64,000 nucleotides of DNA from Iodidimonas sp. SYSU 1G8. GTDB taxonomy: Bacteria > Pseudomonadota > Alphaproteobacteria > SMXS01. Numbering within the stretch: position 1 is the first letter of the stretch; each line of letters opens with the position of its first letter. The position numbers and the translations under genes were made by a program. The stretch is taken from contig NZ_JBBYXJ010000001.1 in the NCBI RefSeq assembly GCF_039655775.1, positions 1,594,001 through 1,658,000 of the forward strand, in the 5' to 3' direction. The notes under the pieces are model-generated. The model was not told where the DNA came from and did not search any database. It saw nothing but the letters and a program-made list of their open reading frames with translations. Shown here one piece after another: positions 46,069 through 54,175 of this stretch.

Positions 46069-46220
46069 CGTCATCCCCGCGCACGCGGGGACCCAGTCGG
46101 GGCCGTCACGCGGCCTCTCGAACCGCACTGTCACGAAAAAGCGATTCCTCGTTGGATCGGGTGCGGCCGTGAGCAAGCAGCCCTACGAAGGTCTGGGTCC
46201 CCGCGTGCGCGGGGATGACG
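46069..46220. mobile_element. MITE-like repeat, copy 1 (152 bp)
   Basis: The element has perfect 28-bp terminal inverted repeats beginning CGTCATCCCCGCG. Each terminus itself holds the palindrome CCCCGCG-CA-CGCGGGG, so each end can form a hairpin. It is nearly identical to the copy at 46601-46751, with differences clustered in the middle (about positions 46126-46185). No coding capacity and no clear target duplication. It is like the dispersed TCATCCCCGC repeats of alphaproteobacteria, and non-autonomous. Confidence 0.8.
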
Positions 46221-46600: not shown

Positions 46601-46751
46601 CGTCATCCCCGCGCACGCGGGGACCCAGTCGGGGCCGTCACGCGGCCTCTCGAGCGCACCGTCACGAAGAAGCGGTTCTTCGTTGGATCGGGTGCGGCCG
46701 TGGTCGGCGCGCCCTACGAAGGTCTGGGTCCCCGCGTGCGCGGGGATGACG
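46601..46751. mobile_element. MITE-like repeat, copy 2 (151 bp)
   Basis: Same 28-bp perfect inverted termini and internal layout as copy 1, in the same orientation, about 380 bp away. One base is lost and there are scattered substitutions in the core (for example GAACCGCACTG in copy 1 against GAGCGCACCG here). It ends 25 bp before the stop codon of the next minus-strand gene and may add a 3' hairpin to its transcript. Confidence 0.8.
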
Positions 46752-46775: not shown

Positions 46776-48017
46776 TCACACCGGCCGGATCAGGGCCTTG
46801 TAGCTGTCGGCCAGGTCGTGGCCGAAGAAGGTCTTGCCGATGTTCTCGTAGTGCCGGTACGAGATCAGCGCGTGGTTCGCCGCCTGCTGGGCGTCGCGCA
46901 ACTGGCGCTCGAGCGGGCTGTCCATGCGGCAGCCGGTGGTGGCGGCGGTGTTGTTGATGACGCCGACGATCTCGCGGCAGGACTGGGCCGCATGGGCGCA
47001 GGCGAGCAGCGCGGGCCAGAAGAACTCCCATTCCGGCACCAGCCGCCCGCCATCCTTGGGCAGCGGGCCGAGATGGTCTTCCAGCCGGTCCTGCGTGTCC
47101 ATGACGAAGGCGCGCGCGGCCATCAGCTTGGCCTGCGCCTCGCCGACGCGGTACTGCACCACGGCCTGGTCCTTCAGCGTGGTGGACAGGCCCCACGGCA
47201 CCTTGCCCATGGCGAGGTCGATGAAGTTGTCGATGGCGCCCCGGCACACGCCCAGCGCCACCGCCGCCTTGTTGTAGACCGCGTGCGTGGGGTTGCGGTA
47301 GGTCGGGTTGGCGTAGAGCTCGCTGGGCGCCAGCGAGCGCGCCGGCAGCAGGTGCTCGGGCGGCACGTACTGGTCCACCATGCGCACGTCATGGCTGCCC
47401 GAGCCGCGCATGCCCGACACGTCCCAGGTGTCGACGATCTCGAACTCGCCCCGGGGGAACATGAAGGACGCTTCCGCCGGCTCGCCGGTCGCTTCGTCCT
47501 TCACCTGGGCGGCCATCAGATAGTTCCAGGTGGCGTTGGGCGAGCCGCTGGCGAAGCTCCCCTGATAGGTCACCCGCCAGCCGTCGCCGTCGCGGCGGCA
47601 GGTGCGGCCGGGATTGGGACCGTTGGGCGGGCCGAGGCCCGAGCACACCAGCGCGTACCAGTCGTTGAAGATTTTCCGCGCCAGGTCGGGCGGCATCTGG
47701 CGGATGACGAGGCCGTTGATCTCGGACGAGATCTGCACGCACCAGCCGACCGACCCGTCGATGGCCGAGCACGCCTCGATCACCTCGATCTGCTCGCGCG
47801 CCGTCAGGTTCTCGCCGCCCAGCTCGGGCGGCAGCACGTAGCGGTAGATGCCGATATCGGCCATCAGGTTCGACGCCCAGGCCGGCAGGTGCCGCAGCCG
47901 CTGCGCCTCGTCGCCCGCCGCGGCGAGCTGGTCGCGAATGCCGGCGATGCGCGCCAGCATGGGCGTTGCCTGCAGCGCCTTCTGGCGCGCGATGATGTCT
48001 TCATTGACGATGGCCAT
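46776..48017 (-). CDS. Acyl-CoA dehydrogenase-like flavin-dependent monooxygenase (HsaA/DszC type)
   Basis: A 413-aa member of the acyl-CoA dehydrogenase superfamily with the Acyl-CoA_dh_2 C-terminal domain. Signature parts: LPPELGGENLTAREQIEVIEACSAIDGSVGW split over helices, GRTCRRDGDGWRVTYQGSFASG, VSGMRGSGSHDVRM and RHYENIGKTFFGHDL. Relatives (HsaA, DszC, NcnH) use reduced flavin from a separate reductase to hydroxylate phenols or oxidise sulfur compounds. No reductase is next to it. AGGGGAGA precedes the ATG. Confidence 0.86.
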   Translation of the reverse strand: MAIVNEDIIARQKALQATPMLARIAGIRDQLAAAGDEAQRLRHLPAWASNLMADIGIYRYVLPPELGGENLTAREQIEVIEACSAIDGSVGWCVQISSEINGLVIRQMPPDLARKIFNDWYALVCSGLGPPNGPNPGRTCRRDGDGWRVTYQGSFASGSPNATWNYLMAAQVKDEATGEPAEASFMFPRGEFEIVDTWDVSGMRGSGSHDVRMVDQYVPPEHLLPARSLAPSELYANPTYRNPTHAVYNKAAVALGVCRGAIDNFIDLAMGKVPWGLSTTLKDQAVVQYRVGEAQAKLMAARAFVMDTQDRLEDHLGPLPKDGGRLVPEWEFFWPALLACAHAAQSCREIVGVINNTAATTGCRMDSPLERQLRDAQQAANHALISYRHYENIGKTFFGHDLADSYKALIRPV

Positions 48018-48475
48018 GGTGTCTCCCCTAATCGATCATCCGCCCCGAGCGCACGCAGGGCGTCTCGCCCCACGGATACACGGTCACGGATTGCTGCACG
48101 GTTTCGCCGACCCCACCGTTTCCCCTACGAAAACGGGCGAAACCGACACTTTCCCCAACAGTCATCCTAGCTGGTAAGGGGCGGGAGGTTGAGCCAAAAT
48201 TTTGGTCCTTCCAACTATATGCGAACGGCCCCGACTTCAGTGTTCTCCGACATCGCTCAACGTCTGGACGAAGAGGCGCCGAGAGAAATGTTCGCGATAG
48301 AAATCGGCCTGCTCCATGCAGCGTACTCTCGGTAAGTTTTCCGGACCGCTCGGTAGGCACCGGAGATTGTGCAGTCGATGCCGCTTTACCGAAAAAAGGA
48401 AACTAGCATATCAGCCAAATAAGGTAGAATTTGGCGCGGTAGGTTCACAAATCAGCTCTGCTATTAGGGTATTTG
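48018..48475. other. Intergenic region before the SIR2-HerA genes, with a hairpin at 48100-48144
   Basis: A 458-bp gap between divergent genes. At 48100-48144 GGTTTCGCC and GGCGAAACC (9 bp, exact) flank a nested shorter repeat (CCGTTT and AAACGG), so a branched hairpin can form. From about 48180 base composition falls toward that of the island, which places the left boundary here. A 26-codon minus-strand frame (48237-48317) looks protein-like but is too short to assign. Nothing else is seen. Confidence 0.5.
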
Positions 48476-49825
48476 ATGACAACAGCTAATACGTTTGAAT
48501 CAGCCGAATATCAGCTCATTGGCCCAGCAGAAGATGGGAAAATTAGCAACCTTCTAGCTGATAAGTCGGGCAAAGAAGCCCGCCAACGGCTTCAGGCCCT
48601 CATTTCAGAATGGCTCAGAATGGAAAACCTCGTCGTTCTGACCGGGGCGGGCACTTCTCACTCGTCAGGTGGGATGTTGATGAAGGATCTTGAGACCAGT
48701 GTCTTAGAAACCGTTGCTGCATCTCCAGACATACCGACCAACAGTAGTAGAATAATTATAGCCCGCCAAGCACCGCCAACTGCGGGTGGATTAAAACTAG
48801 GCTTCGAAGACTGGCTATCGTATCTCGTGAATGCCGCGCATCTTTCCTCAACAGCCTCATCCCCATTTAGCGGGGTCACTTGGAAAGAGGGGCCTACACC
48901 TAGTTCATCAGAACTAAATTGGTTAACCGATCGGATCTCAAAAGCGATATTTCTCGACTGCGCCCTAAGTCTCTGTGAAGGAAGCGGCGCCAGCCAAATC
49001 TCCCCTCATCTTTCTTTCTTGGCCAAACTGGTCTCAAGAGATAGCAATCTTGGTCGCTCTCATATATTCACGTTGAATTATGATACTTTATTTGAACAGG
49101 CATTTGAATTACTTGGCATCCAATATTTTGATGGATTTACTGGCCGGGCGAATGCACGATTTGATCCCTCCGTGTATGGTCTCGACATTTATTGGCCGGG
49201 GGAGGTTGCAGAAGGACGGGTTCGCAGATTCGATAAATTTGTTCATTTCTACAAACTTCACGGGTCCATACATTGGCATATTGATAACAGCGAGCTTAGA
49301 GCGCGACACCCTAACTTGCAGGCTCTAAAGGAGTTCGCAACGCTCGACGTCAACGCCAAGGCAGCAAGACTTTCGGAAGTTGCCGGGTTCCTCAATGCGG
49401 TTGGGATTTTGCCAACTGCGAACAAGTTTGCACAGACTCTTACGATGCCATTCGCGCACCTATTTCGAGCGTTCCAAATTAGACTGAGCGCCCCTCAAAC
49501 CTTCTTGCTCGTAATGGGATATGGCTTTGGAGACGACCACGTTACACGGGTAATTGAGACCGCGCTCATGAACCCTTCGCTAATAATGCTGGTTGTAGAA
49601 CCTGACCCCACCAGCCCGATCATCAAACGCATCGAACGATACAAGGAGTTGGGCAAGCGGGCTTTCGTGCTGACAGCCACGCTTGAAAGCCACAAGGGCA
49701 ATCCATTTACTCGCGCGACGTTTGACGATTTCGCAACAAACGTCATGCCTGATGTTCAGTGGCTTGACGACTTTTTGCGGCTGCGCCGCTTTGAAAAGCA
49801 GATTAGCTCAAGCGGAGATGCTTGA
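48476..49825 (+). CDS. SIR2 family NAD-hydrolase-like protein of a SIR2-HerA defence system
   Basis: A 449-aa protein from ATG 48476 (a TTG one codon earlier is also possible; AGGGT precedes). SIR2 motifs: NAD-binding GAGTSHSSGG (57-66), TLNYDT (199-204) with Asn201 and Asp203, LHGS (261-264) with the putative catalytic His262, and GYGFGDDH (348-355). There is no zinc-binding four-cysteine module, so it is not a CobB-type deacetylase but the SIR2_2 type found in defence systems, where it degrades NAD+ on infection. It is immediately followed by herA (TGA-GTG). AT-richer than all neighbours. Confidence 0.9.
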   Translation: MTTANTFESAEYQLIGPAEDGKISNLLADKSGKEARQRLQALISEWLRMENLVVLTGAGTSHSSGGMLMKDLETSVLETVAASPDIPTNSSRIIIARQAPPTAGGLKLGFEDWLSYLVNAAHLSSTASSPFSGVTWKEGPTPSSSELNWLTDRISKAIFLDCALSLCEGSGASQISPHLSFLAKLVSRDSNLGRSHIFTLNYDTLFEQAFELLGIQYFDGFTGRANARFDPSVYGLDIYWPGEVAEGRVRRFDKFVHFYKLHGSIHWHIDNSELRARHPNLQALKEFATLDVNAKAARLSEVAGFLNAVGILPTANKFAQTLTMPFAHLFRAFQIRLSAPQTFLLVMGYGFGDDHVTRVIETALMNPSLIMLVVEPDPTSPIIKRIERYKELGKRAFVLTATLESHKGNPFTRATFDDFATNVMPDVQWLDDFLRLRRFEKQISSSGDA

Positions 49826-51934
49826 GTGGATAGCCCTCGCGTCATAGGCCATATAGTGGCCGTTCAAGGCTTTCGCGTAAAAGTTGAATTGCTCCCGGAT
49901 ACGAAGTCCGCGATGCGGGCCACTCTAGACGGTGTTCAGGCAGCGGTTTCGATCAATGCATACGTAACGTTTTCCATTGGAGCAGGCCAACTTGTTATAG
50001 GGATCATCACAGATCTAGAAGCCCGCGAAAGCTATGATCCTGAGAGTGGCGACGATCTCACGCTTGAACTTATGAAACCTCGCCGAATTGCAAGCATTCA
50101 GCTCTTAGGGACCATTGACTTCAGTGGATCACAAGGTGTGTTCAGCCCTGGTATTACAATCCTACCAACCCTAGACACCCCCGCAGAGATCGGTGCTCCC
50201 AGAATTCTCAAAGCCGTTTTCGAAACACCGCCGAAGCGCAATAAGCCTGAAAATCACCAAGGTGATGATTACGACTGCGACCTTGATATTGGTCGCCCCA
50301 CAGGGCAGCCCGCAAATCGAGTGAAAGCATCGTACAATGATCTCTTTTCGCGCCCACTAGCGATCGTAGGCAATACTGGATCAGGAAAATCATTCACCGT
50401 ATCTAGCATCTTGCAGAAAGGGATGGCGACCTTAGGAAAATTCGGAGATGAGCCCCACATTTTTATTTTGGATGTAAATGGAGAGTATGAACAGGCCTTT
50501 AGCACAAATGGTCTTACTCCGGAAAAAAGGCCAGATCATATCTATCTAAATGGCAAACCCTTTGGAATTCCAATCTGGTTTCTAAACGCAGCCGAAATTT
50601 GTTCCTGGCTTAGCGCCTCCGAACAGACACAGGAACCGGTACTAAAAGACTGGTGGGCACTGGCCAAAGCGCGCGGTACACAACAACGGTTGGCTACCAA
50701 TGCGAATTCACTTCATCATGCCATATCGAAGACCCAAGCTCTAATTGCCGCGCTAGATGCAAATAGGCCAAAAAAGCAGGCGTGCGTACAGCTAATGGGC
50801 ATTATCAAACAGTACCTTGCTAATCGCCAAACAGTAGCATATCCCAAGCTGCGTGATACGCTCTTACCTTATAGGGATCAGTTCAACGAAACGAAGAACG
50901 TAGATTGGAGCCCTCCGCAAAACGAACCACAAATTAGAGCTGCAGCAGAAGAGCTAATCACTGAACTGAACGCCATATTAAGCACCGAATTTACGCTAGC
51001 AACCCTTAGCTCTACGACAGCGGACAGCCCGCGTTTCATAAGCAGAGGTAGCCTATATGACCCAACGCTAATAGATGACGCAACGTCACCTGAGGATGCA
51101 GGCCGGATCGAGGCTCATTTAACGACCCTAAAACTGAGGCTACGCGCCCGTCTAGATGACCCGCGATGGCGTTCGTTTTTCAATTACGAGCAGGACGGCA
51201 CTAAGATCGAGTCGCTAGAAAGTTGGTTACGCTCGTTTGGGCTCGGAGCCAAGTCAGGCCCGCGCGTTTCTGTGATCGACCTCTCGATGCTCAGCCACGA
51301 GGTATTGCCCTATGCGTGTACTATAATTGGTAGAGTGCTGCTTGAGGCGAGAGAGAATCTAAGAGCAACTCAACGTTACAAACATCCATGGGTCTTAGTT
51401 CTTGAAGAAGCACATAACTATGCCCGCCCGCCGCGATCAGACGAAGAGAGAGGTCAAACGCTTTCTCGATTGGCTTTCGAGCGCATTGCGAAAGAGGGTC
51501 GAAAATTCGGATTTAGCCTCATTGTTGCCAGCCAACGACCAAGTGAAATTAGCCCGACTATTATCAGCCAATGCGCCAATTTTGTAAGCCACAGGCTCCA
51601 GAATCCGGAAGACATTGATCATTTTCGGCGAATAATTCCGATGCAGGCGCGAAGATTGCTGGATCAGGTGACCATACTAGCATCAGGAGAGGCGATCGTT
51701 TTCGGCAGCGCATTTCATGTTCCCACCAGAGTCCTATTTGACGCTCCCGCTCCTGGACCATACAGTCAAACTGCGGCCCCCTTCCATGAGTGGCAAAGCA
51801 CCGAAACGTTCCCAATTCAAAGCATCATAGGAGCTTGGGGATTGCAGGCTACCGAACCAGCCGAAGTCCAGGCTGAAAGGACTTCGCAAGACAGAGAAGG
51901 CGTCCAGACAAGCGCTGACGATAATCCCTTTTGA
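49826..51934 (+). CDS. HerA family hexameric ATPase/helicase of a SIR2-HerA defence system
   Basis: A 702-aa protein starting at GTG 49826 directly after the SIR2 stop. Residues about 1-95 form a beta-rich HAS-barrel-like domain; Walker A G182-N-T-G-S-G-K188-S; Walker B WVLVLEEAHNY with Glu527-Glu528; then ASQRPSEISPTI, SHRLQNPEDIDHF and a C-terminal lid. The roughly 345 residues between Walker A and B exceed the usual HerA distance, so this member carries an insert (about 250-450). In described SIR2-HerA systems the two form a large complex that destroys DNA and NAD+ during phage infection. Confidence 0.92.
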   Translation: MDSPRVIGHIVAVQGFRVKVELLPDTKSAMRATLDGVQAAVSINAYVTFSIGAGQLVIGIITDLEARESYDPESGDDLTLELMKPRRIASIQLLGTIDFSGSQGVFSPGITILPTLDTPAEIGAPRILKAVFETPPKRNKPENHQGDDYDCDLDIGRPTGQPANRVKASYNDLFSRPLAIVGNTGSGKSFTVSSILQKGMATLGKFGDEPHIFILDVNGEYEQAFSTNGLTPEKRPDHIYLNGKPFGIPIWFLNAAEICSWLSASEQTQEPVLKDWWALAKARGTQQRLATNANSLHHAISKTQALIAALDANRPKKQACVQLMGIIKQYLANRQTVAYPKLRDTLLPYRDQFNETKNVDWSPPQNEPQIRAAAEELITELNAILSTEFTLATLSSTTADSPRFISRGSLYDPTLIDDATSPEDAGRIEAHLTTLKLRLRARLDDPRWRSFFNYEQDGTKIESLESWLRSFGLGAKSGPRVSVIDLSMLSHEVLPYACTIIGRVLLEARENLRATQRYKHPWVLVLEEAHNYARPPRSDEERGQTLSRLAFERIAKEGRKFGFSLIVASQRPSEISPTIISQCANFVSHRLQNPEDIDHFRRIIPMQARRLLDQVTILASGEAIVFGSAFHVPTRVLFDAPAPGPYSQTAAPFHEWQSTETFPIQSIIGAWGLQATEPAEVQAERTSQDREGVQTSADDNPF

Positions 51935-52036
51935 AGGCGTGTCTTAACAGCTTCAGATAGTCTTTCTCAGGTAAGTAGACGAAGTGTTATTTCTGCTGGT
52001 CGGGAGGCTTCACGCCTAACTTGCCCTGCCCCCAAC

Positions 52037-52068
52037 AAAAAAAGGGCCGCCCTTTCGAGCGGCCCTTT
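52037..52068 (-). terminator. Rho-independent terminator of the groES-groEL operon
   Basis: Read on the minus strand, the stem AAAGGGCCGC/GCGGCCCTTT (10 bp, 8-nt loop) is followed by a run of seven T. It lies 30 bp after the groEL stop codon. It also separates groEL from the convergent herA transcript. Confidence 0.9.
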
Positions 52069-52097
52069 CCGTATCCCTTGCGGGGAGTGGCTTGGAC

Positions 52098-53756
<1,659 letters not shown>

Positions 53757-53773: not shown

Positions 53774-54088
53774 TTAGGCCGCGGCCTTGGCGGCTGCGCC
53801 GGCTTCGACGATGCCCATGATGTCCGACTCCTTCATGATCAACAGCTCCTGGCCGTCGATCTTGACTTCGGTGCCGGACCACTTGCCGAACAGCACGCGA
53901 TCGCCGGGCTGCACTTCCAGAGCGACGATGTCGCCCTTGTCGTTGCGCGCGCCGGGACCCACCGCGATCACTTCACCCTCGGACGGCTTTTCCTTGGCCG
54001 TGTCCGGGATGATGATGCCACCGGCAGTCTTCTCTTCTTCCTTGATCCGCCGAACGACGACGCGATCCTGAAGCGGTTTGAACTTCAT
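53774..54088 (-). CDS. groS: Co-chaperonin GroES
   Basis: A 104-aa protein from ATG 54088, which follows GAGGAGG; a longer frame upstream is ignored. It holds [23 protein letters not shown] in two parts, the mobile loop, [24 protein letters not shown] and the short conserved end DIMGIVE. It is about eight residues longer than E. coli GroES through an Ala-rich C-terminal tail (AGAAAKAAA). It caps the GroEL ring. Confidence 0.97.
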
Positions 54089-54175
54089 CGAGTGAACCTC
54101 CTCTTGTTGAAGCCCAGAAATTCTGGATTGCAAAGAAAACGCCCGATTCCCCTGAGGGCGCCTCGACCGCCTATG

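Follow-up and report, generated by a model that had tools for sequence, protein, structure and literature searches.

The adjacent SIR2 and HerA genes in the 64,000-nucleotide stretch of Iodidimonas sp. SYSU 1G8 DNA analysed here (the window) are best read, with a probability of roughly 0.88, as an acquired two-gene SIR2-HerA (Nezha-type) anti-phage system that sits in a hotspot of exchangeable cargo, which extends from the groEL terminator to an acyl-CoA-dehydrogenase-like gene. The known reference is the SIR2-HerA (Nezha) system of E. coli, V. cholerae, Paenibacillus and Staphylococcus (8j4u, 8su9, 8wld and 8yhx), with which the original prediction had matched the pair, and the family identity, the gene order and the catalytic residues all agree with that match. 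These features, together with the base composition, the absence of the pair elsewhere in the genus and the patchy spread across phyla, fit a horizontally acquired SIR2-HerA, and the pair is probably an ordinary, working SIR2-HerA of a mostly proteobacterial branch, as judged from its sequence. The system itself is of an already known kind, and what is new beyond the original prediction is that the site varies among sister species.

Table 1. Coordinates of the SIR2-HerA segment and the features that flank it in the window.
Feature	Position	Strand	Description
Left flank, acyl-CoA-dehydrogenase-fold flavoprotein	46776..48017	-	Sister-species orthologues with 91-93% identity
AT-rich leader, presumed promoter-bearing	48189..48475	+	50% G+C
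SIR2-like NADase effector	48476..49825	+	449 aa; Pfam SIR2_2; predicted NADase
HerA/DUF87 hexameric ATPase	49826..51934	+	702 aa; GTG start; Walker A GNTGSGKS (K188); LEEAH (E527/E528)
AT-rich trailer between herA and groEL terminator	51935..52028	.	49% G+C
groEL intrinsic terminator	52040..52075	-	Right edge of variable slot
Right flank, groEL	52098..53750	-	Conserved in sister species; groES at 53774-54133

Intact SIR2 and HerA genes in a foreign segment

The SIR2 and HerA open reading frames were intact and adjacent on the same strand, as had been proposed, with SIR2 followed by herA as in SIR2-HerA (Nezha), and both were matched near full length by PADLOC models (SIR2 PDLC04085, 768.9 bits, residues 2-447; HerA PDLC04106, 1098.4 bits, residues 1-674). 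The ATG start of SIR2 has AGGG 6 nt before it and an in-frame TTG one codon upstream at 48473. The herA GTG directly follows the SIR2 TGA, with a GGAG ribosome-binding-like sequence upstream, and the genes therefore look translationally coupled.

The GAG, NYD and LHG motifs were found in SIR2, the latter two containing N201 and H262, respectively, and aligning with FTTNYD and YKLHGS of the E. coli protein. N201, D203 and H262 were invariant in 40 aligned SIR2 relatives (46-68% identical to the window SIR2), and N201 and H262 correspond to the NADase residues N168 and H227 of the V. cholerae homologue (PMC11559045). The expectation that zinc cysteines are lacking also held, because C162 and C167 are the sole cysteines of the protein, which thus does not have the four-cysteine zinc site of the classical sirtuin deacylases. 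Among solved proteins, the nearest in sequence was SIR2 from the SIR2-HerA complex of E. coli (8j4u/8su9), which the clade profile matched at E 1.4e-39. A Foldseek search with the AlphaFold2 model of SIR2 (mean pLDDT 78) returned only SIR2 chains from SIR2-HerA entries at ranks 1-39, with SPARSA, ThsA and DSR2 coming much later at E values of 5e-7 or worse, indicating that the predicted fold is nearest to that in SIR2-HerA complexes rather than to those of DSR, ThsA and SPARSA.

The HerA protein is a HerA-type P-loop ATPase with Walker A and B motifs (Pfam DUF87, 73 bits), in which the Walker A residues G185-S189, including K188, and E527/E528 were invariant among 39 aligned HerA sequences. 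The same alignment was poorly conserved at about 283-400, with no invariant column before D400, and this stretch was helical in the AlphaFold2 model (mean pLDDT 70). Foldseek matches to the model comprised the HerA proteins of both SIR2 and DUF4297 systems. By sequence, the window HerA scored best against the HerA of the DUF4297-HerA complex (8ziq, 8xau and 9c1m), the branch profile giving 231, 223 and 218 bits for DUF4297-system HerA versus 184 bits for the E. coli SIR2-HerA HerA. However, the effector in the window is SIR2 and not a DUF4297 nuclease, and no DUF4297 match was found in the pair by PADLOC or Pfam. Thus, the pair resembles SIR2-HerA (Nezha) in gene content and order, SIR2 fold, catalytic N and H, the HerA P-loop ATPase and the requirement for no further genes, whereas it differs in being only about 25-35% identical to the solved or tested pairs, in belonging to a separate branch, set apart from the Bacillota and Bacteroidota SIR2-HerA pairs by long branches in the HerA tree, and in having a 702-aa HerA with the poorly conserved helical stretch.

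The segment from about 48189 to 52028 had a G+C content of 49.7%, compared with 66.8 ± 1.6% (minimum 63.6%) for every other 3.5-kb stretch across the window, and its GC3 was 47-49%, whereas groEL and the acyl-CoA-dehydrogenase-like gene had 91-95%, in line with the proposal that the pair is AT-richer than its flanks. The edges were placed at about 48189 and 52028-52036 by comparison with sister species, and the foreign segment therefore also takes in a 287-bp leader and a trailer of about 95 bp. The AT-rich block had thus been correctly recognised, and its extent is 3.84 kb rather than the approximately 3.5 kb originally given. A six-frame comparison of the leader with the neighbours of related loci gave nothing below E 0.03, and a remnant of an upstream partner gene was rejected. 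As for target-site duplications or inverted ends, the only candidate was an 8-bp match, CCCCAACA, at 48153 and 52030, of which the left copy lies inside a block conserved in sister species and is therefore not part of a duplication. No integrase, tRNA or IS was seen at the site, where the segment shows only the SIR2 and HerA genes, and there was no tRNA within the window.

Joint inheritance and recurrent gene partners

In nearly all of the roughly 55 close relatives, SIR2 was immediately followed by HerA, the exceptions being broken genes or short contigs. The distance matrices of SIR2 and HerA agreed with a Spearman correlation of 0.898, a value reached in none of 1000 permutations, indicating that the pair travels together. 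The relatives were found mainly in Pseudomonadota and were scattered in Acidobacteriota, Ignavibacteriota, Bdellovibrionota and others, several being contigs of metagenome-assembled genomes, as expected under horizontal transfer. No HerA of the window kind was present in the six remaining genomes of the genus. The searches used found no phage or viral-contig member of the branch, one plasmid record (1.9 Mb, 65% identity) and no tested or solved member.

In many related loci, SIR2 overlaps or closely trails another gene. In about 10 related loci, SIR2 is preceded by a PIN-domain toxin-like gene together with a small partner, and other upstream partners were type III restriction genes (four loci), a type ISP restriction enzyme (two) and a type II restriction enzyme (one). 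Thus, a PIN-domain gene is a recurrent operon partner in this SIR2-HerA branch and is absent at the window copy. Since such a partner is missing from the window copy and relatives of the pair stand beside defence genes, the pair is a self-contained cassette repeatedly set beside other defence genes. In L034, L036, L037, L020 and other loci, the PIN-domain (VapC-like) gene with its 118-aa partner overlaps or abuts the SIR2 start.

A variable interval beside groEL

The assignment of groESL as the right neighbour of the pair stood, and the left neighbour, which had been called a catabolic monooxygenase, proved to be a flavoprotein of the acyl-CoA-dehydrogenase fold (Pfam Acyl-CoA_dh_2, 77 bits), possibly a group-D flavin monooxygenase within that fold. 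In the three sister genomes in which the interval was assembled (G002, G004 and G005), the flanks were about 88-91% identical at the DNA level up to nearly equal edges, which were at about 48180-48189 on the left, but at 48029 in G002, and at about 52030-52036 on the right. The groEL terminator marks the right edge of the slot because conservation sets in again from its outer margin in all three of these genomes. Two inverted-repeat (REP-like) copies, GTCATCCCCGCGCACGCGGGGACCCAGT and its reverse complement, were also observed at 46070-46220 and 46602-46750 of the window, and similar elements were present in the sister-genome flanks. Distant copies of the flavoprotein in G001 (C13), G003 and G006 lie in other contexts and were set aside as having no bearing on the slot.

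The cargo differed in each of the four assembled intervals in the genus. The slot of G002 (L112:4589-7780) held a ThsB-type TIR gene (184 bits) accompanied by Nmad2, MazG_C-containing and UDG-superfamily genes, which may be regarded from their sequences as a candidate defence operon unlike classical Thoeris; these genes were closely spaced or overlapping, and there was no ThsA in the slot. That of G004 (L113:4334-5577) held a more weakly defence-like cargo, in which an AlbA_2/Schlafen-like gene (51 bits) overlaps a 229-aa gene without a Pfam match, possibly representing an uncharacterised two-gene defence pair. In G005 (L114:4474-5981), the reverse transcriptase of a type VI retron (255 bits) and its HTH gene (117 bits) were located beside groEL. 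The interval is therefore, on these four genomes, a small genus-level hotspot with exchangeable, largely defence-like cargo, and it may have been populated through recombination between the conserved flanks. It resembles the core defence hotspots cDHS1/2 of Pseudomonas aeruginosa (PMC10250203), where conserved flanking genes enclose varying defence cargo, and differs from them in being flanked by groESL, spanning only about 1.5-4.4 kb and being known from four genomes, all from one genus. In further genera of this family, other genes follow groEL, and no groEL-adjacent slot was found.

Proposed mechanism and alternatives

In the homologues, SIR2 assembles into dodecamers that bind a hexamer of HerA, and infection leads to hydrolysis of NAD+ (PMC11559045, PMC12198126), and in V. 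cholerae immunity is abolished or lowered by N168A, H227A or deletion of herA (PMC11559045). By analogy with these, the SIR2 and HerA of the window would form a 12:6 complex, in which SIR2 would be turned on by a phage cue, perhaps phage DNA or DNA ends that the HerA ATPase engages, and the hydrolysis of NAD+ via N201 and H262 could then cause the infected cell to cease supporting phage growth (abortive infection). Because of the low identity, the long HerA branches and the DUF4297-like HerA scores, the trigger and secondary activities may differ from those of the homologues. It is a tentative and rather unlikely extension of this that the branch is a distinct subtype, with a nuclease-associated-like HerA, a variable helical sensor of its own and another phage cue, and that the groESL slot is a standing site of swapping by recombination.

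It is improbable that defence by the pair consists chiefly in the degradation or unwinding of incoming DNA, with NAD+ loss being secondary or absent. Nuclease and helicase activities are reported for the E. coli complex, as cited in PMC11559045 and PMC12198126, and the resemblance of the window HerA to that of DUF4297 nuclease systems would accord with them, but the NADase residues do not vary within the branch and the V. cholerae NADase point mutants lose immunity in whole or in part. Still less probable is that plasmids or other mobile DNA are the target, instead of or besides phage. SIR2-containing systems such as SPARSA do act on plasmids, and relatives of the pair are chromosomal or, occasionally, plasmid-borne; however, the tested SIR2-HerA systems found in the literature restrict phage.

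A decayed or silent remnant without function, which the lack of a sigma-70-like site above chance in the leader (48189-48475) and the AT-rich codon use within a high-G+C host could suggest, is very improbable, given the full-length frames, the intact catalytic residues and the preserved gene coupling; moreover, several relatives of the same branch are broken, so that decay shows when it occurs. Finally, housekeeping sirtuin and HerA DNA-repair genes, for which the work of archaeal HerA with NurA in end resection (PMC12977600) might be cited, can practically be dismissed and were rejected as the origin of the pair, since the pair is missing from all six remaining genomes of the genus, which excludes the case of a housekeeping homologue in all relatives at this locus that would have refuted the original prediction, and its composition is foreign, its spread across phyla patchy, and the two-gene segment devoid of a NurA-like partner.

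Taken together, the window pair offers an intact representative of a branch of an NAD+-depleting system for which no tested member was found, and the interval between groEL and the flavoprotein gene provides a simple place to read for further defence genes in the genus.
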